From a virus, in IMG/VR virus record IMGVR_UViG_3300022932_000002, positions 64,001-95,278 of that record: a stretch of DNA of 31,278 nucleotides, one strand, 5' to 3'. This document shows, piece after piece, positions 1,492-21,573 of the stretch (positions within the stretch are counted from its first letter, which is position 1; each line of letters begins with the position of its first letter). A model generated the notes under the pieces. It saw only the letters and a program-made list of their open reading frames with translations, made no database searches and had not been told where the DNA came from. Made by a program: the position numbers and the translations under genes.

Positions 1492-4400
1492 TGAGTGTAC
1501 CTAATTGTATAAATTTTAGTAACCCTACTTTAGCAAAATTAGCTACAGATTTTGGAGAAGTTTTAACAGCTAATATATTGGAAAATTATTTTCCCAATTC
1601 GATACCTACTATAAATGAATTCAAGACTGCTTTAGCTAGAATAAACAGACAAGTTTATTACTCTAATTCTTCAAAAGACAGAATTATTGCACCATTTGAG
1701 GAAATTAATAGAATTAATCAAGATGAAATTGCTACTATAGGTAAATTGTTACCTAAAGCTATAGCAATAGATTTAATTCCTTCTTATTCAGAAGTACTAA
1801 AAGGTGGATATATAGCTACAGCTAAGTTTCAAGATGGTATTATTACATTATCTTCAAATGCAATTCAAGGTACAGCTTTTCATGAGGCTTTTCATGCTGT
1901 ATATAGAACTATGCTTAGTGATTCTAAGCAGAAAGCTATAATGAATCAAGCTACTAAGCTATATGCTAAACCTAATGATACTGTAGTTAATAGACTTAAA
2001 GAACAATATAATATCTCTGATGAAGAAGCAGTAATATTATCTTATGAAGAAATGCTTGCTGATGAGTTTGCTGAGTATATGAAAGATACTTCCTCTTATA
2101 ATAGTTTAAATTCTGGAATAAGATCCTTATTTGATACTATTATACAATGGATAAAAAATGTATTTTCTAATAAAGTCTTAGTAAAACAGTTATTTGAAGA
2201 TGTTGCAGCAGGTAAATTTGTTGATAAAGAGGTAAACCTGAGTAGATCTGTTACTCCAGCATATCAGTCTTTAAGATTTGAAGGTCTTACAGCTGACGAA
2301 GTAAGAGATATTACAAGACAATTAGCATACATTACATTAAAAGATATAGACAGTATCCAAGATATTAGAGATATTAATGGACAAACAGCTACAGAAAATA
2401 TCAATTTACTTATTGCAGAAATTGAAGATAATATAGATAAACTTCCTTTTCCTGAGAAAACACAAGAAGTCCTTGATAAACTTTTAAATTATGAAGCTGA
2501 GCCAGATGAAGATGGTTTATATCCTTTAACAGATTTCTGGAAAGATAATCTTGTTTCTTATATGTCTGATAACTTAAACATTAAAGTTAAAAGTTCTTTA
2601 AATAAAGAGAAAAAGAAAGCTTTAGATGATAAGTTAGCAGATGAGGATGGAGAAGCTCAAGATGAATTAACTAATAAAGGTTTTCTTAAATCCTCTTTTG
2701 AAACTTCTGCTCAAGTAAATGCTACTTCTAATATTAAGTTCATGATTAGTTCTATTCCCAAACTTGATATTATAGGAGGTAAAGTAGTAGAACAAAGAAG
2801 TCAACTTACTGGATTTCCAATGTTTAATGATTTTGGTACAACATGGAATCTTATTCAGAAATCTTTATCAGGTATTGTTCCTTTACATGAAGTTAATGAG
2901 GAAGGCACAGTGGTTAAGATTACAGATACTTATGAGTTAATGGTTAATAAACTACTTGAAGATTCTATATCTGTTCCTGAGCTTAAATATGTATTAGATA
3001 GATTAAATAAAGCAGATGAATCAGTTAGATCTGAGTTTACATCTGTTTTTTCAATGCATAAAGGTATTTATCAAACTCTATTGATTGATAAAGGTGCAGC
3101 TGTACAAACTAAGATTACTACTGAAGATGTAGAGTCTAAAGAAAGAGCTATTCTTGAAAGATGGGGAGCTGAATTTGCTTTAAAGTTTGGAACTAAAGAA
3201 GGAAGACAATTAGTTTATAATCAAGAAGCAATCAATAATTTTGCAGAAGTTAGAAGTGCATTGCAAGAAAGTATCAATAATGACTTAAGAAATAAGAATT
3301 TAACCACTACTACTAAAAAACTATTGGTAGGTACATTTAAGGCTTTAGGTATTACTTTAGATAGTAAGACTTACTTACATATGTTTAATGAAAGAAGCTT
3401 CGAAATAGAAGATACTGATGATAATAGAGTGCTTATTGCTGTAGATAGTATTGTCAATGATATTATTAGAGCTACTAATACTCTAGTAGGCGCTGGAAGG
3501 AACTCTAGAAGAGAAGGAGAACTTAATGAAACTACTAATCAGATATTAGATGAGAAATCTGTATTTAAAAATATCTTTGCTAGAGCAGAATCTATATTTG
3601 ATAATGTAAAAGGAGAAGCTATGTTTAGAAGTGCTGGTGGACCTACTTGGGTCTATCAGGATCATAATTCTATGTCATTAATTCAAAATCAGATTAATAA
3701 TGGAGATTTAACTCATGTAAACAATTTATTAAATAGTCATTATTCTAAGTTTTCTTTATGGGCTAATACTTTAGCATCTAATCCTGAAGCTAGAAAAAAC
3801 TTTAATATTATTTTATATGGTAATAATAAAGTAGAAAATGCTCAAGATGCAGGGTCTAAAGCAAATGACTTAAAGAAGTTTGACCAGTTGCATGATGTAT
3901 TACATAGACAACTTAATGGAACTTTTATAGGTTTAGCTGAAGCAGATAAGGGACAGCAGAGTTATATTAAAGGTTTTTCTTTGATTAAATCTGGTATTAT
4001 ATCTACTGGATTAGTTCCTGAGTTTACTAATGCCAATCCTGTAGCTATTAAAGTGTTTATGGGATACCTTAAAGGAGAAATAGAAAGAGCTAGAGCTGCT
4101 AAAATAGCTTTATATGGAGATTCAGCTAATGGTATTCCACCTTTAGCAGAAGAAAAACTTATTCCTAATTATCATTATTACATAGATCCTAGTGGAGTTA
4201 GACAACCTGGAGGAGCTTTTTACAGCTATATATTTCCTAATATTGATCCTAGGGAACTAGATTTAGTTGACGATGCTGGTAACTATTATCCTACTGAATC
4301 AGTTGAAAACTATGATAACAATATTAAACTTATAGAGTACATCAAGAATTCTTTAATTTCTAACGTAAAGAAAGATATTAAAGACTTTAAAAATGCTGGA

Positions 4401-7400
4401 ATTATTGGCGTAGAAGGTGGCGCATATATAAATAAGCTTATCAGTCCGGAATTATTAACTAATAGAAGTATAGTAGCAACTCTAGGAGATTATAGTATTA
4501 ATGCCTTAATAGGTAATATTGAGTTTACTATGATGTTTACTGGAGATCCTGCATTTTATAAAATGAAACCTAAATGGGATAAACTAGTTGATGGTACTTA
4601 TCAAATGAAACCTTGGGCACAACAAGATCACTTTAGTGATTTTATGAAGAGGATTCCAGCTGCGGGAGCTTCGGGAAAACTTGCTAGGATATTCAATAAT
4701 AATGATGGTAGTGCAGCAGTTAGAAGTACTTATAGTTCAGCTGTTATAGCTAATATCATGACCCCTTCTACTTATTTTGGTAATGATGATAACATCAGAA
4801 ATATTGTAGATAATCTTAATAAATTTGATCTAGGTGTAAAATTAGATTATGAAGATATCAAAGATTTATTAAGTAGTTATAAAACTATTAATCAAACAGA
4901 TGCTCAAGCTTGGATTAGTTTAAAGACTTATAGAGAAAGAATGAGAGCTTATGGTAGATGGAATCCTGCTAAAGAATCTGTATACCAACAGATTATAGAT
5001 AATGAAATAGCAATAGCAGAAGGAAAACAAATAAAACCTTTATCTTTTGCTGATACTTCATTATTAATGCAACCTCTTAAGACAGTTCATTTTCAATTAA
5101 AGAAAACTCCTGGAGGCATGATGGTTCCTCACTTTAATAAGCAATCTGAAGCTCCTTTGCTTCCTTTTATGACTAGAGGTACTGAATTAGACAATCTGAG
5201 AGTAGCTATGGATAATAATGATATTGACCATGTTATTGTATTAGATGGTAAGAAAGTAGGAGGTAATGGTATTACTCGTATAACTGATGAAAATGGTAGA
5301 ATTAAAGCTACTAATGAAATTACATTTAATCCTACTCAACTAGACTATAGTAATTTATTCTTACAACAAGATTTAACTCCACATGGAGTAGGTCCTACAG
5401 TAGTAGGTTCACAGACTACAAAGAATATCTTAGGTACAGTTAATATCAATGCTAAATACCTAGATGGAACTCTAGAAGGTGTACAAGCAGCGTTTGCATT
5501 AGAAGATGCTATTGCTAAGTTATCTGATTTTGGATTAAAGAATTTTCAGAATTCTATCGGTTATGACGATGGTATTTGGGAAGTTGATGAAAAGACTGGT
5601 AGAAGAAAAGTTATCAATAAGATTATTGATATGCTCAGAGGAGAAGTATCCGATAATCAAATTGAAGCTTTAGAGAAAGGTATTATACCTGATGCTTTGA
5701 CTATTCCACAAAAACTTCAAAGTAAGATTAGCTCTTTGAATACTAAGTCTGTTGTTAAACTTAAGCAGAATGGAGGGGCTTTTATTCAATTGTCTAATTT
5801 TGGATTTATTGGTAGTGAAGTAACTATGTCTGATGAGGTTAAAAACGGTATTATTTGGTTTCAAGAGCCACAGAAACAATTAGAACCTATGCAAATGAAT
5901 GCCGATGGTACTACTTCTGCTGCTAAAGTTTTGTTACCTTATAATACTTTGACGAAGCTTCTGTCTGATAAAGGTATAGATATAGCTAATATGTCTTCAG
6001 AAGACATCATGAAACATATTAATCCTAATGTATTGAAAGGTCTATCTTATAGAATTCCTAATCAGGCAGCTGGGTCTAATGATGCTTTTGAAATTGTAGG
6101 TATATTACCACCACAAGCAGGAGATACTATTGTAATGTATTCAGAAATTACAGCTAAGACAGGATCTGACTTTGATATTGATAAAGCTTATATAATTCTA
6201 CCAGAATTCTATTGGGATGATAAATTAAAACAAGTTAGATTAATTCAATATGATCCGAATAATGAAACTGAAGCAGGATTAAAGAATAGAAGATTAAGTA
6301 TTATGAGAGAAATTCTTCTTAATCCTTTAGCTTATCTTGATGTAATGGCTCCGCTTGATAATGATTGGTTTGAAATATTAGCTAAAAATCTATTTAAAGA
6401 AGTTAAAGATATTGGTGATATGTCATTCTTTAGAGGAGTTACACAACTCAATAATAAGAATACATTTGATATGGCTAAAAATCTTGTAGGTTCTATTGCT
6501 AATGTATTGTCTCATCATAATGCTTCTAAGGCTTATAGATTAGGTTTAAGAGAATATCTTGGTAAAGGTACTATAGTAGATGGCAGGACTCAATTTGATA
6601 CTAATGCTGAAGGTTTATCATTTGATGAAGATGGTAATTCAATAGCTATTACATTAAGTGCATTTATGAATGCTATTGTCGATGCTGCTAAAGATCCATT
6701 TATTGCTAGATCTAATATTAATATGAAGACTGCTAACACTGCTTTTATGTTAGCTAGAGCTGGTGTAGAAAGGGAATGGATTGTTGCATTTATAGGTCAA
6801 CCTATTCTAAGAGATTTCATTGAATTAATGGATAATACTGAAAGTAGATTCACTGATAAATCTCAAGGAGCTTTAGATTTAGTATTAAAGAAATATGGTA
6901 TTAAATATGAAGCTAAAGATATTCAGAAATTAAATCTTAAGAATGAAGATGGTAATGTTACAATTAGTACTCAGGTTCTTATTGATAGCATTAATGGACA
7001 ACAACTAGATTTAGAAACTAATAGTAGAATTCTTGGTCAATTCTTGCAATGGAGAGATAATGCTAAGTATCTTAATGAAGCTTTGAAGGTTAATAAAGTA
7101 GATGTTGAAGGTTCAGGAGGAAGTATGCCTGAGACAATGTTAATGTATAACTCATTCTTAAAAGTAGTTAAAGACAATGTTATTGTCAACTTTGATAAAA
7201 TGATGGGTTACAATATTATTGATGGTTATATTGTATGGAATACTGAAGGGCCTAAGTCAATGATGGGAACTTATTTTCAAAATGCTGTTCTCAAATATAG
7301 AGAAGCTTTTGAAGGTTTCTTCTTGTCTACTTCACCAGCTGTTGAAAGAAGTATTAATAGAATAGCAGCTAGATCTGGTTATACATTCTTGACTAATAAT

Positions 7401-11628: not shown

Positions 11629-12049
11629 ATATTACACTAAATATAGCTTCTACTACTTGTTTATTTTCTGAATTTGATAATTCATTTTTAAAGTAATTAT
11701 TTAACTCTTCAATAGTACTGCTTTCATCAATAATAATTGAATCACCTTCTTTAATCTTAAAAGTTCCTTTTATTGATGTAATTTTTCCATCTCTGTCCAT
11801 TTCTCGAACCGTACTGTTAAATGTAGATGCATTAGTTAGAGGATATGTACTTACACGATGATTCCCAATAGTGTTACTTAACAATTTATATACAAAATCT
11901 TTTAATAATGTACTATGTAGCTGTTTTTCTTTAAGCGTTTTGATTATAGCCATGAATTTCTCAGAAGTTTCTAGAGTCATATTCTTAACGTCGTATTCAA
12001 TCTTAAAGTCAATAGGGATAATTATTTCTAGTTTTTTACTCATTACCAT
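11627..12049 (-). CDS. Hypothetical protein, last gene of the replication operon
   Basis: This 140-residue protein is not recognised. It starts with a strand-like segment rich in Ile and Lys (KKLEIIIPIDFKIEY), has a helical middle, then alternating strand-like segments (GTFKIKEGDSIIID), and ends in a helix. It could be a small alpha/beta protein. Two starts are possible: ATG at 12049, overlapping the uracil-DNA glycosylase stop by 7 bases, or ATG at 12043, which shares one base with that stop in a TAATG junction typical of coupled translation. It is the final gene before the convergent terminator. No function is proposed. Confidence 0.7.
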   Translation of the reverse strand: MVMSKKLEIIIPIDFKIEYDVKNMTLETSEKFMAIIKTLKEKQLHSTLLKDFVYKLLSNTIGNHRVSTYPLTNASTFNSTVREMDRDGKITSIKGTFKIKEGDSIIIDESSTIEELNNYFKNELSNSENKQVVEAIFSVI

Positions 12050-12896: not shown

Positions 12897-13663
12897 TTAG
12901 TTATATATTTGTATAAATAAATCTCATTAATTGGAACAAAACTACTCATTAGTTCATTTCCTATGGGTATTCTAGCTCCTAAGTCTCTTTCCATAGCTAG
13001 TCTTCTACTTTCAGCCTTATATAAAGTTTCTTTAATAGGCTTTTGATTTCCATGAAACTCAATAATTCTTTCTTTGGCTGACTCGGTAATAGTAGAATAT
13101 CTACCTTCTAATATTTTATTAATATCATTATTATCTTTTGGTAATTCAAATTTGTACATAGTGTGATAATTATCCACTTCTATTACACTTTGAAACCATT
13201 TGTGATTTCTTAATTCTTCTTCAAATTCAAGAAAAGATATTGAACCATCAAATCTATATAATAAATAAATACTGTCTCCATAATCTCCATCATATTCAGT
13301 TCCTACGAAAGAATTTACAAAGACAGTATTCCATTTGAATGATTCTCTATTGTGACCTAAAAAAGGCAAAAGAAAAGTACTTGTTTTAGTTATTTTCTCA
13401 TGGGTATATAAATAATACCCTGGTCCAAATACTGCATGGCAACTTTCTTTTTTAATAGATTGTATTTTATATTTCTGTTTATCAATTTTTAAGTTATCGT
13501 TAATTTTAATTCGAAAGTTATCACACTCAAGTCCTATAAGAATCTTGTCTTTATCATATACTTCAAAATCATCGTGTATAGGGCCTATAAATATTGCTCG
13601 GCTACTTAATACATTAATTTTGATTAATGTTCCATTAGAATTCTTCAGTACTTTCGTTGTCAT
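12893..13663 (-). CDS. Hypothetical protein, ~256 aa
   Basis: No family is recognised. With the ATG at 13663 (MTTKVLKN) the protein has 256 residues and overlaps the 5' nuclease gene by 29 bases. An upstream in-frame ATG at 13714 would add 17 hydrophobic residues and lengthen the overlap to 80 bases, so the shorter form is preferred. The first half looks beta-rich. A Tyr/Asp/Gly segment lies around the middle (TEYDGDYGDSIYLLYRF), and the C-terminal third is helical and charged (ESAKERIIEFHG). Its place between a FEN-type nuclease and uracil-DNA glycosylase suggests a role in DNA replication or repair, but that is context only. Confidence 0.75.
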   Translation of the reverse strand: MTTKVLKNSNGTLIKINVLSSRAIFIGPIHDDFEVYDKDKILIGLECDNFRIKINDNLKIDKQKYKIQSIKKESCHAVFGPGYYLYTHEKITKTSTFLLPFLGHNRESFKWNTVFVNSFVGTEYDGDYGDSIYLLYRFDGSISFLEFEEELRNHKWFQSVIEVDNYHTMYKFELPKDNNDINKILEGRYSTITESAKERIIEFHGNQKPIKETLYKAESRRLAMERDLGARIPIGNELMSSFVPINEIYLYKYITK

Positions 13664-14399
13664 GTGTTGTTTGAAATTTAAAAGGTGTAGGTAGTTCAGG
13701 TATATAACCAACATTTGTATAAAAATCTATAGGTTTTCTTAAGATATAGACTTGTTTAAATACCTTTGTAAAATTATGAATACCTTCTCCTAGACCATAT
13801 GTTTGTATGTATTGTTTTAAACATGTTTGATAATAATGCTCTAGAGTTTTACAATCTTTTAATATTAATTCTGACTTTACTTTTCCTATTCCTTTTAATC
13901 CTTTTATATTATCCCCCGCATCACCTTCCAACAATTGTTTGAATAGAAAATGAATAGCTTCATTATTAGAAGTTACTCCTCTTTCTACTTTTTTGTAATC
14001 ATAATGCTCACCAGCAATCTGTTTTTTAACATCTTTATCTGGTGAGCAATTGATATATTTATATTTCTTTGGATTAACTTGATTAAACATCACTAAACCA
14101 TTCATATCATCAGCTTCTAAGCCTTCAAAAGATAATGCATTATACTGCTCTTTTAAATAACTTTTCAAAGTCTTTAAATATTTTAAATCACTTATAGGTC
14201 TATGTGCTTTATACTGATTATTAATATTATGTCTGAAGTAAATACCTTCAGATATGAATAAATAGTAGCTAGATGCACCAGTTTTAATTCTAATTGATTC
14301 TATTATAGAATCAATATTTTTAATACTAGTAGAAATATTTTCTTTACTACATATATAGCATAAAGAATCACCATCAATAACAGCTACTGTTTCTAACAT
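13635..14399 (-). CDS. 5'-3' exonuclease / flap endonuclease-like (FEN/PIN superfamily)
   Basis: This 254-residue protein matches phage 5' nucleases of the T5/T7 flap endonuclease type, which remove RNA primers and 5' flaps. Metal-binding acidic residues appear in order: VIDGDS (Asp9, Asp11), EADDMNG (Glu95, Asp97, Asp98), SPDKD (Asp121, Asp123) and LEGDAGDN (Asp160, Asp163). The last runs into the helix-three-turn-helix DNA-binding motif GLKGIGKVKSE at 168-178. The basic patch YKAHR (63-67) is also typical of the family. It starts inside the end of the 292-aa gene (7-base overlap). As part of this replication operon it would complement the family A polymerase, whose own fragments usually lack a 5' nuclease in phages. 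Confidence 0.93.
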   Translation of the reverse strand: MLETVAVIDGDSLCYICSKENISTSIKNIDSIIESIRIKTGASSYYLFISEGIYFRHNINNQYKAHRPISDLKYLKTLKSYLKEQYNALSFEGLEADDMNGLVMFNQVNPKKYKYINCSPDKDVKKQIAGEHYDYKKVERGVTSNNEAIHFLFKQLLEGDAGDNIKGLKGIGKVKSELILKDCKTLEHYYQTCLKQYIQTYGLGEGIHNFTKVFKQVYILRKPIDFYTNVGYIPELPTPFKFQTTHDNESTEEF

Positions 14400-15271
14400 A
14401 ATACGAGATCTATAGAATTTTTAGAATTTAATTTTTGTATAGTTTCTTCGAAAGATAAGAATTCATCACTTACATTTTTAAGCCATTCTTTCTTATCTTT
14501 AATAGTTTTTAAATTGGGCTTTTTAATATAGGAACATAATGCTTGTTTTGTGTCTCTTAATTCAACAAAATCTGTTATTCCTGACTTTTCATAAAGAGGC
14601 TTTATTGACTTTATATAATGTCTTTTAACTACCTCTAAATCTTTTTCATGTAGTAAATCTGAAGAAACAATAACACTAAATGCTTGAGGCAAAGGTGTTT
14701 CACCCAAAAATAAACATTTTCTGACATATTCAACGTAATCTCTTTTAACACATAATGTTATTAAAGGATTAAAATGTGGAACACCATCAATATATTTATC
14801 TAAATAGATCATATTACGGTAAGCTACTAGATTTCTAAATCTCCAACCATACGTTCCAGATAATTCTTCTGTAAACTGCTTTATTAAGCCTGTATATGAT
14901 TGAGTAGTACCAGGATTCATACCAGATAAATGATAATAATTTTTATCTTGTACTTGTTTAATTAAGTTTTTATGAAGTAAATCAATTACTTTATTTGCGT
15001 TAGTTTTAGTTTTAATATCTCCTACTTGATAAATTCTAGTTAGTGCAGATAAAATATAACCATCTAATTCAGAACTTGTAAATTTCTTATACTTATCTAA
15101 TACAATTTTAGCGAATTGATTCTTATCAAATCTTTTAGAATAATTATAACTTTGACCAAAGAAAATAAAAGGAATATATTCTTTATCTGAAGTAAAAATA
15201 ATATTACTTTTTAGATATCCTTTGGGAATTTGAAAAATAGATCCTATAGGATTCTTATTGAGTACATCCAT
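14393..15271 (-). CDS. Hypothetical protein downstream of the E1 gene
   Basis: This 292-residue protein is not recognised. It begins MDVLNKNPIGSIFQIPKGYL. It appears to be an alpha/beta protein with an aromatic N-terminal third, a central region with many Tyr and Arg residues, and a Lys-rich helical C-terminus. No catalytic motif is evident. It starts 10 bases after the stop of the E1-like gene and overlaps the 5' nuclease start by 7 bases (stop codon TAG), so it is expressed with both. It could be a target or accessory factor of the ubiquitin-like system, or a replication protein. The data do not decide. Confidence 0.72.
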   Translation of the reverse strand: MDVLNKNPIGSIFQIPKGYLKSNIIFTSDKEYIPFIFFGQSYNYSKRFDKNQFAKIVLDKYKKFTSSELDGYILSALTRIYQVGDIKTKTNANKVIDLLHKNLIKQVQDKNYYHLSGMNPGTTQSYTGLIKQFTEELSGTYGWRFRNLVAYRNMIYLDKYIDGVPHFNPLITLCVKRDYVEYVRKCLFLGETPLPQAFSVIVSSDLLHEKDLEVVKRHYIKSIKPLYEKSGITDFVELRDTKQALCSYIKKPNLKTIKDKKEWLKNVSDEFLSFEETIQKLNSKNSIDLVLC

Positions 15272-15281
15272 ATTTTATATT

Positions 15282-15965
15282 TTACATTTCTTGAAAATTT
15301 AATGAAGGTAACTCAAAATCAGTTTTAAAGTTGACTTGTCTAACCTCCATTTCTAAAAATCTATTTGCTAGATAATTATTAAAGACAGCTGTCATTAATG
15401 ATGCTATTAAAGCGCCACAATGTGATGTTGCTTTAAAGCTGCATGGAGCTTCTTCAATTTCACTATCATCAAATAAATATTTGATATATTCTTCTTCTTG
15501 ACCTTTTTGTACACAGAATACCATACCAACTTCAGCAAGTACTCTACCATCAATAAATACTTCTCTATCTTCTTGTTTCATCCAATTAGAAAACATAGTC
15601 TTTCTTGCTTTCATATTATCAAAAGCTGAAAACATAATTGGAGATATTTCTGATTCTTCTGTATAAAGACCCAAAGTTTCAACATTAGAATTACCTGAGA
15701 ATGCATAAATAGTTTCAGCAATAGCAGCTGCTTTATTTTTACCTATTTGATTTACTGAATACAATTGACCTGCCATATTTACTTCTTCAATAGTATCGTT
15801 ATCAAATAAGTATAGATTATGACCAATTCTTCCTAAGAATAAACTTAACCATGAACCTATTCCACCAGCACCACCAATAATGATATCTTGTGCTCCTGCT
15901 CGATACCAAGCTGCATCAGAAAATCTAACCTGTTTATTATTAATATTTACTACTTCTTCTTCCAT
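15282..15965 (-). CDS. E1-like adenylating enzyme (ThiF/MoeB/UBA fold)
   Basis: This 227-residue protein is predicted to adenylate the C-terminus of a ubiquitin-like modifier. The Rossmann ATP loop is IIGGAGGIGSWL (GxGGxG at 31-36). It is followed by LFDNDTIEEVN (Asp55, Asp57, Asn63), a conserved GKNKA lysine segment (75-79), and AFDNMKARK (Asp116, Arg121), all in the order of MoeB/ThiF enzymes. Departures are notable. The family SNLNRQ segment reads VNMAGQ, so the ATP-contacting arginine is absent, and there are no paired CxxC zinc motifs. Cys175 and Cys183 are candidate thioester cysteines. The gene lies 3 bases after the JAMM peptidase gene. This compact build resembles E1s of prokaryotic Ub-like operons (PRTRC, Bil and similar) more than housekeeping MoeB. 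Confidence 0.92.
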   Translation of the reverse strand: MEEEVVNINNKQVRFSDAAWYRAGAQDIIIGGAGGIGSWLSLFLGRIGHNLYLFDNDTIEEVNMAGQLYSVNQIGKNKAAAIAETIYAFSGNSNVETLGLYTEESEISPIMFSAFDNMKARKTMFSNWMKQEDREVFIDGRVLAEVGMVFCVQKGQEEEYIKYLFDDSEIEEAPCSFKATSHCGALIASLMTAVFNNYLANRFLEMEVRQVNFKTDFELPSLNFQEM

Positions 15966-15968
15966 AAT

Positions 15969-17243
15969 TTAAGCTTTTTCAAGTTTTAATCCTGTTAGTC
16001 TTTCAATTTCTTCATCTCCTACACTATCCTCAACATTTGCCATTAAAGCATCTATAACAGCATCGTAGATTTTTAGATCTTTACAAGGCTCTAATAACTC
16101 AATACAAGACATGGCAATTGCAGTATAATCTACAAAATTACAAATTACTCCAAATCTTGTATCAACTTTTTCAGGGAACATTAATTCTAGTTCACACAAA
16201 TAATTATCAAGAGCAATTTTACTCAATCCTCCTTTAGAAATTAAGATTTGATCTAAAGTATATTCTTTACCTGGGCCATTTTTCAATGTATCAATCAAAA
16301 ATAATTTTACTTTAGCTGGACTAAAACTACCAGCTTCTCTATTTGAAGTTAATTCAAACATATCATCTGGATCTTCTACTATTTCAGAAGTTGAATGTTC
16401 AACATAATCTTCTAATCTATCTCTGAAGGTGTTTTTTTTTCGTGAAGCTTTAGTACTTTTTCCTACTTTAGAATTTGGAGTATATACTTGGTATCCCGGC
16501 TGATAAGTTCTTTCATAAGGTTTATCATATTGCATAGTATACTGACCCGGTACATACTTAGCAACAGTTGTCTTTCTTTTAGATTCTTGCAATTCAGCAA
16601 TTCTTTTGTAAAAACTTTCTCCCAAATCTTCTAATACTAAATCGCAATCAATAGTATACATTACTTGTTCAACTTCATTAACTTCTTCTTCTGTTGATTC
16701 TGTTGAAAAGCCGAGATTACCAATATAACTTCTCTTTGTTTGCAACTTACCTGTCTTTTCAATAGTACCACAAAATGCTACTTTAGCACACCATTTATGG
16801 TATTCTTTGAAATTTACAATAAGTGATAAGTAATAGTTATATTTTGGAGCATTATCATGCAATTCAGACATATCAGTACCTGAAAAGAAAGTTTCCATAC
16901 CATGATGTGTATGAATATGACCCATTTTTTTACCTTGTTCTAATGCATCAGTCCAAGCTTCAAATGAGAATTCATCATCTGGATTAATTTCATATTCAGT
17001 ATAAGAAGCATTACCAATATCCATTGGAATAACTTTTTCAGCTAGAATTTTCCAAGTTCCAGGTTCTTCAATTCTACCTTCTGTAGTTGAATAGATTAGG
17101 ATACCACTCCATTCATCTCCTCCTACATTTTTATGTAGCACTTGGATTTGATTCAGCAATTCTCTTGAAATAGTTACCGTAGCTTTATCTTTTAAAGTAA
17201 CTACTTTTTTAGCATGTGTTTTATTATCGTTTACATTACTCAT
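15969..17243 (-). CDS. JAMM/MPN+ metallopeptidase (candidate Ub-like processing/deconjugating enzyme)
   Basis: This 424-residue protein has an N-terminal JAB/MPN domain (about 20-160) with a complete zinc-peptidase signature. Glu44 lies in DEWSGIL, and GHIHTHHGMETFFSGTD gives His111, His113, Ser121 and Asp124, which is HxHx7SxxD. JAMM enzymes cleave after the C-terminal glycine of ubiquitin-like proteins, either to mature the modifier or to remove it from targets. A basic low-complexity linker (about 230-275) leads to a C-terminal domain of about 130 residues that I cannot assign. The gene sits 2 bases after the E2-like gene stop and 3 bases before the E1 start, so all three are one translational unit. 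An E1 and an E2-like neighbour make deubiquitinase-like function much more likely than a generic peptidase. Confidence 0.92.
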   Translation of the reverse strand: MSNVNDNKTHAKKVVTLKDKATVTISRELLNQIQVLHKNVGGDEWSGILIYSTTEGRIEEPGTWKILAEKVIPMDIGNASYTEYEINPDDEFSFEAWTDALEQGKKMGHIHTHHGMETFFSGTDMSELHDNAPKYNYYLSLIVNFKEYHKWCAKVAFCGTIEKTGKLQTKRSYIGNLGFSTESTEEEVNEVEQVMYTIDCDLVLEDLGESFYKRIAELQESKRKTTVAKYVPGQYTMQYDKPYERTYQPGYQVYTPNSKVGKSTKASRKKNTFRDRLEDYVEHSTSEIVEDPDDMFELTSNREAGSFSPAKVKLFLIDTLKNGPGKEYTLDQILISKGGLSKIALDNYLCELELMFPEKVDTRFGVICNFVDYTAIAMSCIELLEPCKDLKIYDAVIDALMANVEDSVGDEEIERLTGLKLEKA

Positions 17244-17245
17244 TT

Positions 17246-18811
17246 TTAATCTAATATTAAATAATACGAATTTATTTTATCTTGTAAAACAGTACAAAAG
17301 TCTGTTTTTAATGTTGGGTGAATAACTAAGCAGTTTGCTTCAGCCTCTTGTACTTCTACTCCAATAGTATGTACGACATTTCCTTTATAATATAAAGGTT
17401 TATATCTTTTATTATCTGAATTAAATTGTCTTAGAAAACTTTGAACATCATTTGCATTACTATCTGGAGAATAATATGAACCATTGGAATAAACAACTTT
17501 AACATCAGTATTTGTAGTCATGAAATTGTTGAATTCTTCATTTTCCATGCTTAATTCAAATAACTGGGATCTTTCATTATAAGTTATTGGTAAAGTTAAA
17601 CTTGATTTAGTTAACTTTCTCAAAAGTAGTTTAGTGTGATCCATTACTTGTCTATTAGATAAGGTTACACGACTTCTAGTTCCACCATGAATATTCTCCA
17701 TTTTCATATAAGGTCCTCCTTCTATAGATTCCCAAGCTGAATAACTGTATAAGTTTACAAGTATCTTCTTAAAAGTAACTATATCCCATTTATTTCTTAT
17801 CGAATGACATAAGTTAGACATTATGGTATTATCACCTAAACAAAATGCAGTTGGAGCATTATGGTTTCTAGATACTAAATGTGAATGTCTATATCCAACA
17901 TTAGCTTCCTTAAAACTTACAGTGCCTCTATGTCCCCATATAGAACTAGTATGATTCATGTATTTATCAAAATATAAAACAATATACAAATCAGTAATAT
18001 CATGAGTTTGCTTATTACTGTTAGATAAAGTAAATTTATCAAAATAAATAATAGCAGAATATTTAGAAATAGGTTCATTTTTATAGACCTGATTTGGTAT
18101 TTCATTTAAGTCCCAAGAAGTATCGTAGAATTCTTCTAATGCTTCTCTAGCTTGCTTTTGTCGAGAATCACATAAAGTTTTAATAAAATCCTGTGGAACT
18201 GGATCTGCTGAAACAGAGTGAATTAATTCTCTAATTGCATCATATTCTTCTTGAGATTCTATAACACTAGTAACATTAGCTTTTGGAACGAATAGCTCTT
18301 TGTATAGAAAATTAAATACTTTATTATCTAACTTATATTCAACTAAAAAATCAACTTTATATGAATTACTATTATTTACAACATCTTTTATTACTCCTTT
18401 ACAAACTTTAGGGATAGCTACTAAATCCCTTATAGTATAAGAATCTACAGTATCTAAAGTTTTAAATCTTCCTGTACCATTATAAGAATATGTAAAAGAT
18501 ATTACTTCTCCTACTTTGAGATTATTTAAATTTACTTCTTTCTTCTTAACTATTTTTTCTTCTTTTTCTTCTTGAACAATCTGTTCAGGAGTAATTTTAG
18601 GCATGCTTACAGAAACTTCAGGAGATGAGTCCAACTCTCTTACCCTTCTTTCTAGGGCTTCTAAATCATCTTCTTCATCCTCATCCTCTTCTTCAATTTC
18701 TTCATCTACATCACTATATTCTTCTTCCTCTTCTTCCATGATTGGTATTTCAATAAGGTTATTAAATAAATATTCTTCTATTGCTCTTGACTCTAATTCT
18801 GAATCTTCCAT
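17246..18811 (-). CDS. E2-like conjugating protein with acidic N-terminal extension
   Basis: This 521-residue protein begins with a strongly acidic low-complexity region (about 25-50 mostly Glu/Asp). A Lys/Glu linker follows, then a beta-rich domain around 95-180. The region 250-375 has the layout of a ubiquitin-conjugating E2 fold. It contains successive strands (SAIIYFDKF, DLYIVLYFDKY, GTVSFKEA), an HSHL motif at 309-312 at the place of the usual HPN, then AFCLGD with Cys324 where E2s carry the catalytic ICLD cysteine, followed by a Trp-containing helix (KWDIVTFKKILVNL). Neighbouring E1 and JAMM genes support this reading. The start directly follows the T tract of an upstream terminator. 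The E2 assignment is from motif order, not from an alignment. Confidence 0.75.
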   Translation of the reverse strand: MEDSELESRAIEEYLFNNLIEIPIMEEEEEEYSDVDEEIEEEDEDEEDDLEALERRVRELDSSPEVSVSMPKITPEQIVQEEKEEKIVKKKEVNLNNLKVGEVISFTYSYNGTGRFKTLDTVDSYTIRDLVAIPKVCKGVIKDVVNNSNSYKVDFLVEYKLDNKVFNFLYKELFVPKANVTSVIESQEEYDAIRELIHSVSADPVPQDFIKTLCDSRQKQAREALEEFYDTSWDLNEIPNQVYKNEPISKYSAIIYFDKFTLSNSNKQTHDITDLYIVLYFDKYMNHTSSIWGHRGTVSFKEANVGYRHSHLVSRNHNAPTAFCLGDNTIMSNLCHSIRNKWDIVTFKKILVNLYSYSAWESIEGGPYMKMENIHGGTRSRVTLSNRQVMDHTKLLLRKLTKSSLTLPITYNERSQLFELSMENEEFNNFMTTNTDVKVVYSNGSYYSPDSNANDVQSFLRQFNSDNKRYKPLYYKGNVVHTIGVEVQEAEANCLVIHPTLKTDFCTVLQDKINSYYLILD

Positions 18812-18812
18812 A

Positions 18813-18853
18813 GATAAAAAATAAAAAGACCCTTAACAATTAAGCTAAGGGCC
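18813..18853 (-). terminator. Intrinsic terminator between the Ub-like unit and the E2-like gene
   Basis: Read on the - strand, GGCCCTTA (18853-18846) pairs with TAAGGGTC (18835-18828) over eight base pairs including one G-U, around a 10-base loop. It is followed by TTTTTATTTTTT (18827-18816). It lies 10 bases after the stop of the 50-aa ORF and just before the E2-like start, so it should make the modifier transcript more abundant than the enzyme transcripts. Confidence 0.8.
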
Positions 18854-18862
18854 TTCTAATGA

Positions 18863-19015
18863 TTATAAAAAAGGCGTTACTTTATTGTAATCACATGCTA
18901 AATAAGAATCATATTCTTCTAAAACATCCTTTTTTAAATTTTCAAAATAATCATCTATTTTTTTGTCAAGAAGTTCATTATGAGCTTTTAAAGCTTTTTC
19001 CTCTTCTTCTGACAT
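18863..19015 (-). CDS. Small acidic protein, 50 aa, between Ub-like and E2-like genes
   Basis: The ORF starts ATG at 19015 (MSEEEEKALKAHNELL) and ends VTPFL, 6 bases downstream of the ubiquitin-like gene and before the terminator. The first 35 residues are predicted to be one charged amphipathic helix, and the C-terminal part has a single Cys (position 41). The close spacing and the shared terminator support a real gene co-transcribed with the modifier. It could be a partner or adaptor of the conjugation system. No family is recognised. Confidence 0.7.
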   Translation of the reverse strand: MSEEEEKALKAHNELLDKKIDDYFENLKKDVLEEYDSYLACDYNKVTPFL

Positions 19016-19021
19016 AGTATA

Positions 19022-19258
19022 TTATTTACCAGATTTCATTTTTGCAGCAGTAAGGAAAATTGTAAATTCACCTTCAGGCAAAGCTGCTCCATCATTTTCC
19101 AGAGTTACTTTCAGTGTTTTTACAGTAGCTTTCATTCCATCAGCAGAAATTGCCGCAGCTTTCATTTCAGCTTTCAATTCTCCCCATGTAGTTGCAGAAG
19201 ATTCAATTTGTTGCAAACTATCATTCTGTGCTGTATAAATTTTTACGATTCTTGACAT
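19022..19258 (-). CDS. Ubiquitin-like (beta-grasp) modifier protein, 78 aa
   Basis: The likely start is ATG at 19258 (MSRIVKIYTAQN), preceded by an A-rich leader. An upstream ATG at 19306 would add an implausible 16 residues. The order is strand (RIVKIYTA), strand (SLQQIES), helix (TTWGELKAEMKAAAI), a middle segment, then LPEGEFTIFLT, which matches the ThiS/MoaD/Prok_Ub pattern of a final strand after a Gly-Glu/Asp turn. The protein ends AAKMKSGK, so removal of one residue would leave a C-terminal glycine (Gly77) ready for adenylation. The gene heads the cluster that includes the 50-aa ORF, E2-like, JAMM and E1 genes. It resembles Prok_Ub/PRTRC-C type modifiers. The fold call is from pattern and context. 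Confidence 0.85.
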   Translation of the reverse strand: MSRIVKIYTAQNDSLQQIESSATTWGELKAEMKAAAISADGMKATVKTLKVTLENDGAALPEGEFTIFLTAAKMKSGK

Positions 19259-19391: not shown

Positions 19392-19973
19392 TTAAATTAA
19401 TTCAATATTAAATACAAGCTTTCTTTCTTCTTCTGTATTTACAAAATGGTATCTCTTTCTACCACTTTCTCTAACATACTTAGGGCCATCATCTGGAATA
19501 ATATTACACATAGTTAAGGAGTCTTCAAACCACTTTTCAAGTAACCACATATTGCTAACGTCTGGCATATTACCCCTTTCTATTTCGTAAATATCACAAG
19601 ATATACTAAGATATCTTCCTTCTGGTATTTCTATAGGTGACAGTTGTTCATTGATAAAAAATGAGAAATAATTATGATAATATGTGGTAATTGTTTTTCT
19701 CATTCGCCAATTTAATACTGCACTATATAAATCCTGGCCATTTACTGTCCATGTATTCGGTGTACCTGCTTTTTTACTATTCTTTACAAATCTATTTTTG
19801 TCATTATCACAACAGTAAACTTTCTTTCCTATTACGATGGGACTGTTTGCTAATTTTTCTTTATGTTTTATTGGTAACTTTTCTCTGTCTTGCCATAACC
19901 AATACTTAGTACTAGTTCTGTTAGACAGTATATAAAGTGATTCCCATCCTGGTATTGTAACATGATAACTCAT
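19392..19973 (-). CDS. RusA-like Holliday junction resolvase (probable)
   Basis: This 193-residue protein has its informative part near the C-terminus. GNMPDVSN (Asp138, Asn141), then EKWFEDSL (Glu146, Glu150, Asp151) and IIPDDGPKYV (Asp161, Asp162) follow the RusA order of PDxDN, an aspartate-bearing helix and a GxxxDD segment. RusA enzymes cut four-way DNA junctions as dimers using these acidic residues. The second aspartate of the DxDN signature is replaced (DVSN), so activity is not certain. The N-terminal 100 residues carry two Cys (54, 55) and many aromatic residues and are not recognised. The start overlaps the primase gene by 53 bases. The context of replication and recombination genes agrees. 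Confidence 0.7.
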   Translation of the reverse strand: MSYHVTIPGWESLYILSNRTSTKYWLWQDREKLPIKHKEKLANSPIVIGKKVYCCDNDKNRFVKNSKKAGTPNTWTVNGQDLYSAVLNWRMRKTITTYYHNYFSFFINEQLSPIEIPEGRYLSISCDIYEIERGNMPDVSNMWLLEKWFEDSLTMCNIIPDDGPKYVRESGRKRYHFVNTEEERKLVFNIELI

Positions 19974-20946
19974 AAAGATAATTTATATAGATTTGTAATT
20001 GCTCCAGAGAATACTTTTCTGTATAATCTGAAACATCTTTAGTACATAAGGGTAAGAAGTGTGCCTGAATATCATATAGATTTTGATTTCTCAATGCATT
20101 ATTTACACCCGGTATATCATTATCATAAAGAAATATAATTACTTTGAACCTCTCTTTAAGCTCTAGTATTAAATCTTCTGATAAATAACTTGATTCACCT
20201 TGTGGTGCAATTGCTGGAATACCAATTTTACTCAATATAATAATATCCTTAAGGGATTTTGTAATAATCAAAAACTCCCCTGCGTCAGGGAGTTGATTTA
20301 ATCCTTGGATACTAGTAGTTGAATAATTAGATATCCATTTACACTTCTTACTATAGGGTTGATAGATTTTCCATTGCTCTTCTCCTAATTCATTTAAACC
20401 TAGATAATAACCATAACATAAAGAATCTGCTATAAAATGCATACCATTAATCCAAAAGGATTTTAAAGCATAAACATTAAACTTTTTTAAATCTTTACTT
20501 GTTATTTCATATTTATCTTTCCAATACTTTTTATCTAACCTATTCCATTCTCTTATCTCAACATTAATAATAACTTCTTTGTCGGGAAGATCTTTTATAT
20601 TAATATTATGAATTATAGAAGTTGATGGTATATGTTTAATACTTGTATTAGGAATAAAATTTAAATTGAAATCAGAGTTTACAATATCTAGTGCTTCGTA
20701 GTAAGTCACCCCATATTTCTCCTTAATGTAATCAAAACAGCTTAGTGTACCAGGTACTCCAAAGTCTTTATACTGAAGATTATTTCCACTTTTGTATATA
20801 ACACAAGTTGGCTTCTTATCTGTTCTTAATTCACTCTTAAATAATTTATGAATATCATCAAAATTATTTACATATTTTTTGAATATATCATAAACACTTA
20901 TTTTTGATAATATATTCTCTTTTGATACTAATTTTCTTCCCCACAT
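19921..20946 (-). CDS. DnaG-like DNA primase (TOPRIM)
   Basis: This 341-residue protein should make RNA primers. The first 90 residues resemble the N-terminal domain of DnaG primases (VYDIFKKYV, DKKPTCVIYKSG, LQYKDFG, CFDYIKEKYG), but the usual set of zinc-binding cysteines and histidine is not complete. A TOPRIM domain follows in the C-terminal half. GEFLIITKSLKD corresponds to the first conserved motif, though the catalytic Glu is not evident there, and IFLYDNDIPGV supplies the DxD metal site. The DnaB-like helicase encoded in the same strand module is the expected partner. It starts 51 bases after the SSB-like gene. It is shorter than bacterial DnaG, and no helicase-binding domain is seen. 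Confidence 0.87.
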   Translation of the reverse strand: MWGRKLVSKENILSKISVYDIFKKYVNNFDDIHKLFKSELRTDKKPTCVIYKSGNNLQYKDFGVPGTLSCFDYIKEKYGVTYYEALDIVNSDFNLNFIPNTSIKHIPSTSIIHNINIKDLPDKEVIINVEIREWNRLDKKYWKDKYEITSKDLKKFNVYALKSFWINGMHFIADSLCYGYYLGLNELGEEQWKIYQPYSKKCKWISNYSTTSIQGLNQLPDAGEFLIITKSLKDIIILSKIGIPAIAPQGESSYLSEDLILELKERFKVIIFLYDNDIPGVNNALRNQNLYDIQAHFLPLCTKDVSDYTEKYSLEQLQIYINYLYELSCYNTRMGITLYTV

Positions 20947-20997: not shown

Positions 20998-21573
20998 CTA
21001 GAAAACATCATCCTCTGAGGTTGCCTCAGTAGGTGGAGCAACATTGCTTCTTGTAGGGGTTTCATAGATATCAAACTTTGGATTAGTAGATAATCCTGAT
21101 GGAGTTGTACCATCTAATTCCACGAAATTTGGAAAAGTTGGGAAACCTGCATAGAATTTATCTCCATTTTGACGGTATGTAAATTTCATTGTAAAAGTTT
21201 TACCTACTGCACGTGGGAATACTCTATCTTTTAAAGCAGTTACAAATTCTTTGAAGCTAGAAGGATTAGCTAAAGCAGCATAATATTCTTCTTCTGTCAT
21301 GAATTTAGTTGCCAAATGCAATACAGTTCTATTAGCAATATCCTGAGCCTTTACATTATCAGAATTTGTTAACATGTGACGATATTCAGCTCCATTAGTT
21401 TGTTCGATAATAATGAAAGCTCTATCTTCATTAATTGAAGTATCTTCATTTTTAGCAAACTCTACACCTTTAATCTTATTACCTACTACTCTCTCACCTA
21501 CCATAATTGGTGAAAACCCATCTGCTGTAATACTTTTTCCTTCTGAATTTACTTTACTTCCGTAACCTGACAT
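20998..21573 (-). CDS. Probable single-stranded DNA-binding protein
   Basis: This 191-residue protein has a beta-rich middle with segments such as FIIIEQTNGAEYRHML and KTFTMKFTYRQNGDKFY, followed by a low-complexity Pro/Thr/Ser tail that ends SEDDVF. An acidic, disordered tail ending in aspartates and phenylalanine is the hallmark of SSBs, where it recruits replication partners. The gene lies immediately upstream of the primase, preceded by an A-rich leader, which suits an abundant protein. The OB-fold assignment is inferred from this architecture, since no SSB sequence motif is diagnostic. The stop is TAG. Reading through it would add only 10 codons. Confidence 0.65.
   Translation of the reverse strand: MSGYGSKVNSEGKSITADGFSPIMVGERVVGNKIKGVEFAKNEDTSINEDRAFIIIEQTNGAEYRHMLTNSDNVKAQDIANRTVLHLATKFMTEEEYYAALANPSSFKEFVTALKDRVFPRAVGKTFTMKFTYRQNGDKFYAGFPTFPNFVELDGTTPSGLSTNPKFDIYETPTRSNVAPPTEATSEDDVF

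Follow-up and report, generated by a model that had tools for sequence, protein, structure and literature searches.

A predicted ubiquitin-like protein conjugation cassette among the replication genes of crAss-like phages

Described systems and the crAss-like locus

Bacterial ubiquitin-like conjugation is known mainly as an antiphage defense. The Bil (BilABCD) and type II CBASS (Cap2/Cap3) systems use ubiquitin-like protein (Ubl)-type modification with E1, E2, and JAMM parts. Ubl conjugation in CBASS has been described (PMC10097602). The PRTRC system, an operon of plasmids and mobile elements, encodes the proteins E, C, F, B, A, and ThiF, an order that corresponds to Ubl (C), F, E2 (B), JAMM (A), and E1 (ThiF). 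In lambda and T1 phages, the Ub-like tail protein I and the tail protein K (JAB plus NlpC) lack accompanying E1 or E2 proteins and belong to the tail assembly genes (Iyer 2006, PMC1779556). Here, we describe a set of Ubl, probable E2, JAMM, and E1 genes that is carried by a group of crAss-like phages. No description of this cassette was found in the literature searched, which was limited to open-license papers without preprints, so prior reports elsewhere are not excluded; the main text of Yutin 2021 (PMC7886860) contained none of the terms searched.

The analyzed stretch of DNA (the window; 31,278 nucleotides) corresponds to positions 64001 to 95278 of a 95,278-base virus record (IMGVR_UViG_3300022932_000002). 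The record encodes a terminase and a portal protein that are 37% and 41% identical, respectively, to those of bajarodcaudo virus 1, whose replication block resembles that of crAss001, so the phage is crAss-like. The cassette (positions 15282 to 19258, minus strand) encodes, in order, a Ubl, a 50-amino-acid (aa) ORF, an E2-like protein, a JAMM peptidase, and an E1, with gaps of 2 to 51 bases between these genes. The original prediction, a complete set of these parts inside a phage replication operon, was confirmed with respect to the presence, position, and order of the five ORFs and to the replication operon, although its reading of the Ubl terminus required correction (see below). Polymerase A, a DnaB-like helicase, a second helicase, Sak4, thymidylate synthase, primase, and a 5'-3' exonuclease are encoded on the same strand. 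The cassette lies between the Toprim primase (19921 to 20946; phrog_12622, E=2e-43) and the exonuclease (13635 to 14399; phrog_107, E=2e-38). A 193-aa ORF between the primase and the Ubl (19392 to 19973) showed a weak match to a RusA-like Holliday junction resolvase (E=4e-4). The 292-aa protein encoded immediately downstream of the E1 (14393 to 15271, minus strand) was considered as an E3 or a target. However, its alignment with relatives was poor, and it had no significant match in Pfam, NCBIfam, PHROG, or PADLOC; it was therefore not assigned to the system.

Predicted components of the cassette

The E1-like protein (15282 to 15965; 227 aa) has a ThiF fold, with the motif GGAGGIGS, catalytic Asp116, and catalytic Cys175. 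It matched Pfam ThiF above the curated cutoff (57.5 versus 28.1 bits; E=1.4e-15) and phrog_15670 (E=4e-53), and its best PDB profile matches were UBA5, MccB, TcdA, UBA1, MoeB, ThiF, and Cap2. Asp116 was conserved in 85 of 85 members and Cys175 in 84 of 85, the remaining sequence being cut short. The JAMM/MPN+ metalloprotease (15969 to 17243; 424 aa) has an N-terminal catalytic domain and a variable C-terminal region. Its match to Prok-JAB was just below the cutoff (21.8 versus 25 bits; E=1.7e-4). However, the full motif (E44 and H111-x-H113-x7-S121-x2-D124) is present, and these residues were conserved in 84 to 85 of 85 members and invariant in complete ones.

The E2-like protein (17246 to 18811; 521 aa) contains the candidate active site H309-S310-H311...C324-L325-G326. 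The catalytic candidate Cys324, which lies downstream of this HPN-like motif, and His311 were found in 75 of 75 aligned members. The structural model shows a helix, four strands, a loop with the HxH motif and the Cys, and two helices, with pLDDT values mostly between 76 and 98 over residues 211 to 520 except for a dip at residues 241 to 250. Structural support for an E2 (UBC) fold was weak: no Foldseek PDB hit fell below 1e-3, although the weak hits included chain C of the BRCA1-A complex (the UEV protein BRE), kinetochore chains that appear to be CENP-P (RWD), and the UEV domains of Vps23 and Tsg101. No Pfam, NCBIfam, or PADLOC E2 family matched the window protein, a Pfam scan of 59 members revealed no E2 family and nothing shared between members, and PDB sequence profiles returned nothing. 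Searches with Prok-E2_A/D in the virus record, one bin, and 199 genomes gave no hits, controls included, and are thus uninformative. Some relatives read HPHSSREGVMCLG (as in L019, one of the fetched loci described below) or HPHVHGNFSSYCLG; the first has the HPN-to-Cys spacing of eukaryotic E2s, as judged against approximate reference sequences used only as a rough control. On the basis of topology and the active-site motif, we consider the E2 assignment likely but not proven.

The Ubl (19022 to 19258; 78 aa) ends with KSGK. An AlphaFold2 model (mean pLDDT of 85.8, low confidence at residues 75 to 78) shows a beta-grasp with the order EEHEEE, and its best Foldseek PDB matches were ubiquitin and Ubls (probability of 1.00, TM scores of about 0.6 to 0.7). 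None of 39 members matched a Pfam family, and PDB sequence profiles yielded only chance-level coiled-coil hits. Ser76-Gly77 was invariant in 12 phages, although the invariance of the Gly in alignment A6 is partly by construction, because rows were trimmed at that motif. The mature C terminus is probably Gly77, with Lys78 as a predicted one-residue propeptide, rather than the SGK end originally read.

In most phages, the Ubl domain ends with KSG, followed either by a long tail in the same ORF or by an immediate stop. Where the Ubl stands alone, the ORF stops exactly one residue after the Gly in seven contigs (SGK in the window and, among the fetched loci, SGF in L013, SGI in L016, SGE in L021, AGI in L024, AGN in L067, and SGK in L080), two residues after it in cr106, and five in L018 and L029, so that gene breaks fall at the predicted cleavage site. 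Six of these loci (L013, L016, L021, L024, L029, and L080) have an ORF of 32 to 131 aa in the place of the tail. In cr106 (cr106_1, positions 1746 to 2949), the Ubl gene is split by an HNH endonuclease; the Ubl part ends with SGKF, and the tail is a separate ORF behind the endonuclease. The acidic 50-aa ORF of the window (18863 to 19015, minus strand) occupies the same place, and its KIDDYF resembles EIDDMF at the end of fused tails. It is therefore best read as the split-off tail of the Ubl and the site after the Gly as the JAMM cleavage site, both by inference. A possible SAP/HeH-like domain in the fused tail had no significant Pfam match. A 191-aa protein of the window (20998 to 21573) ends with SEDDVF, which resembles an SSB acidic tip; the EIDDMF-like ends look similar, and a shared partner is a speculative possibility. 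However, in one clade of seven loci (L051, L055, L060, L061, L081, L091, and L092), the Ubl ends with KAA instead of KSG despite intact E1, E2, and JAMM residues, which Gly-based conjugation does not explain.

Conservation in related phages and comparison with PRTRC, Bil, and CBASS

Of 50,697 phage records, 74 were found with the E1, including those of Flavobacterium psychrophilum phages, crAss001-type and DAC15-type gut phages, and a few uncultured phages. The order Ubl-E2-JAMM-E1 occurred in all 11 annotated phages examined (nine gut phages of the crAss001/DAC15 type, Flavobacterium phage FpV4, and Dulem virus 41). Uracil-DNA glycosylase is encoded close by, downstream in the gut phages and Dulem virus 41 and upstream next to the primase in FpV4 (in DAC15, the neighbors are unnamed). 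Homologs of all four genes include crAss001 gp76 to gp79 and FpV4 gp50 to gp53 (phrog_15670, 21448, 16107, 15310, and 15560), which PHROGs lists as unknown function. Listed product names are "thiamine biosynthesis protein," "E1 enzyme family protein," "ThiF family protein," "metalloprotease domain," or hypothetical. The annotated E2 and JAMM ORFs overlap by about 50 to 125 bases in most annotated relatives (e.g., positions 11732 to 11793 of locus L003) but not in DAC15 or the window.

A viral scan with the window E1 alone as a single sequence found nothing, whereas an E1 alignment detected 182 viral-contig relatives, of which 80 were fetched, and two contigs in bacterial bins (L093, with the whole set, and L094, cut short). 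Of the 81 fetched loci (L013 to L093), E1 and JAMM were found in all, E2 in 72 by HMM and in 9 by reading, and Ubl in 72 by HMM and in 8 by reading; the last locus (L071) ends inside the E2. The four genes occur in the same order in 80 of 81 loci. Because the loci were chosen by E1 alone, the co-occurrence of the other three genes is an independent test, although some loci are near duplicates. At 16 to 41% identity to the window proteins, the E1 Cys and Asp, the E2 Cys and His, and the full JAMM motif remained invariant. The four genes are under purifying selection (dN/dS of 0.19 to 0.31 between crAss001 and cr112), similar to the primase (0.20).

The closest known system is PRTRC. The only plasmid tblastn hits of the E1 were PRTRC ThiF proteins (four annotated as such and a fifth in an unannotated record with PRTRC-like neighbors). 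Eight plasmid loci from three bacterial phyla showed the same gene order as the phages, apart from protein F between Ubl and E2. A single terminal Gly (predicted for the phage Ubl) and an E2 motif with C-x-G (CLG in many members of both) are also shared. Profile comparisons (hhalign) detected homology between E1 and PRTRC_ThiF (P=9e-20) and between JAMM and PRTRC_A (P=1e-5; reversed control, 0.2). The E2-like protein matched PRTRC_B only at a P of 0.02 to 0.03, with the Cys in register and reversed controls at 0.6 to 0.9; matches to PRTRC_B or eukaryotic E2 were at a P of about 0.02 to 0.05 overall, in register at the Cys and absent in reversed controls. The Ubl had no match to PRTRC_C. The curated models do not place the cassette in PRTRC: the E1 scored 35 bits against a PRTRC_ThiF cutoff of 144.75, and A, B, and C gave no hits. 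No ParB, E, or F protein was recognized among the window proteins scanned, which did not include every window ORF or the rest of the phage genome. In addition, the E2-like protein has HxH where PRTRC_B has a P..N(I/V) motif, and the cassette is carried by phages among replication genes. The best NCBIfam match of the E1 was ThiF PRK08644 (63.5 bits, far below its cutoff of 159) rather than PRTRC_ThiF, so descent from PRTRC is not shown. Curated defense models do not place the cassette in Bil or CBASS either. PADLOC E1-E2 models matched only the E1 weakly, JAB models gave weak hits, and neither the E2-like protein nor the Ubl was matched. Unlike in those systems, E1 and E2 are separate proteins here and are encoded by phages rather than directed against them.

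Inferred function and alternative explanations

The interpretation given in the original prediction was partly supported. A complete set resembling PRTRC and Bil is supported, and two outcomes that had been set beforehand as refutations were not observed: the Ubl model is a beta-grasp, and the genes co-occur in related phages, although the E2 fold lacks a significant structural match. No evidence was found for the suggested role against host Ub-like defense. We consider reversible conjugation of the Ubl to proteins during phage DNA replication to be the likely function. In this model, the JAMM peptidase would trim the Ubl after Gly77, removing one residue here or a long tail in most relatives; the E1 would adenylate Gly77 and take it as a thioester on Cys175; the Ubl would move to Cys324 of the E2-like protein, which would attach it to lysines of target proteins; and the JAMM would remove it again. 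The targets would most likely be phage or host proteins of DNA replication or recombination, although neither an E3 nor a target was identified. The analysis itself shows the parts, with the E2 assignment likely, the predicted Ubl fold, the conserved active-site residues, the fixed gene order, and the purifying selection, whereas every reaction step, conjugation included, and the targets are inferred.

Among the alternatives, an action against host Ubl-based immunity (Bil or type II CBASS), for example, as a decoy Ubl and a JAMM removing host conjugates or as a dead-end E1/E2, is unlikely. Bil and CBASS use the same parts, and the E1 and JAMM weakly match defense models. However, all enzyme active sites are conserved, which argues against an inactive decoy set. 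The cassette also lies in a syntenic block with primase and uracil-DNA glycosylase across the annotated phages rather than in a variable accessory region, and no similarity of the Ubl or E2 to defense families was found. The replication-gene setting points more to phage DNA metabolism. A sulfur carrier system, in which the Ubl would be a ThiS/MoaD-like thiocarboxylate donor activated by the E1 for a thiolated nucleotide or cofactor, is slightly less likely still. It is suggested by the name "thiamine biosynthesis protein," the ThiF match of the E1, and nearby nucleotide metabolism genes. However, no other thiamine or sulfurtransferase gene was identified among the window and annotated neighbor genes, and the E1 keeps a Cys at the UBA-type position. 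Moreover, an E2-like protein with an invariant Cys and a JAMM accompany the E1 in every complete locus. A JAMM is not needed for thiamine or molybdopterin sulfur transfer (Iyer 2006, PMC1779556); an E2 is not known to be needed either. Finally, a processing-only Ubl-JAMM pair for assembly or maturation, as suggested by the long Ubl tails of most relatives and the proposed JAB cleavage of the Ub-like tail protein I in lambdoid phages (PMC1779556), is very unlikely, because the lambda set has no E1 or E2, whereas here both are always present with intact residues and in replication rather than tail genes.

The group includes cultured gut phages (crAss001 and DAC15) and cultured Flavobacterium phages, so the system is open to direct testing. 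Conjugation would turn misannotated genes into a protein modification pathway, raise the question of what is tagged during replication, and bear on how Ubl systems spread between plasmids, phages, and defense islands. More tentatively, a virus-owned, complete cascade, with E2 and Ubl families not represented in Pfam, may be a conserved part of the replication block of this crAss-like phage group and may reversibly tag replisome or recombination proteins, as SUMO or ubiquitin does for PCNA in eukaryotes. A parallel Ubl-E2-E1 set may exist in unrelated jumbo phages. In Xanthomonas phage PhiXhv-15 (PV764602, positions 2817 to 6696), an E1 homolog is encoded directly downstream of an 892-aa protein holding HPHMAVPSSQESHGSLCLG (an E2-like motif), which is preceded by a 141-aa protein ending with ASGG, a candidate Ubl. 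DNA topoisomerases and a ligase are encoded nearby, with no adjacent JAMM, and Erwinia phage Ep032 has a similar E1.
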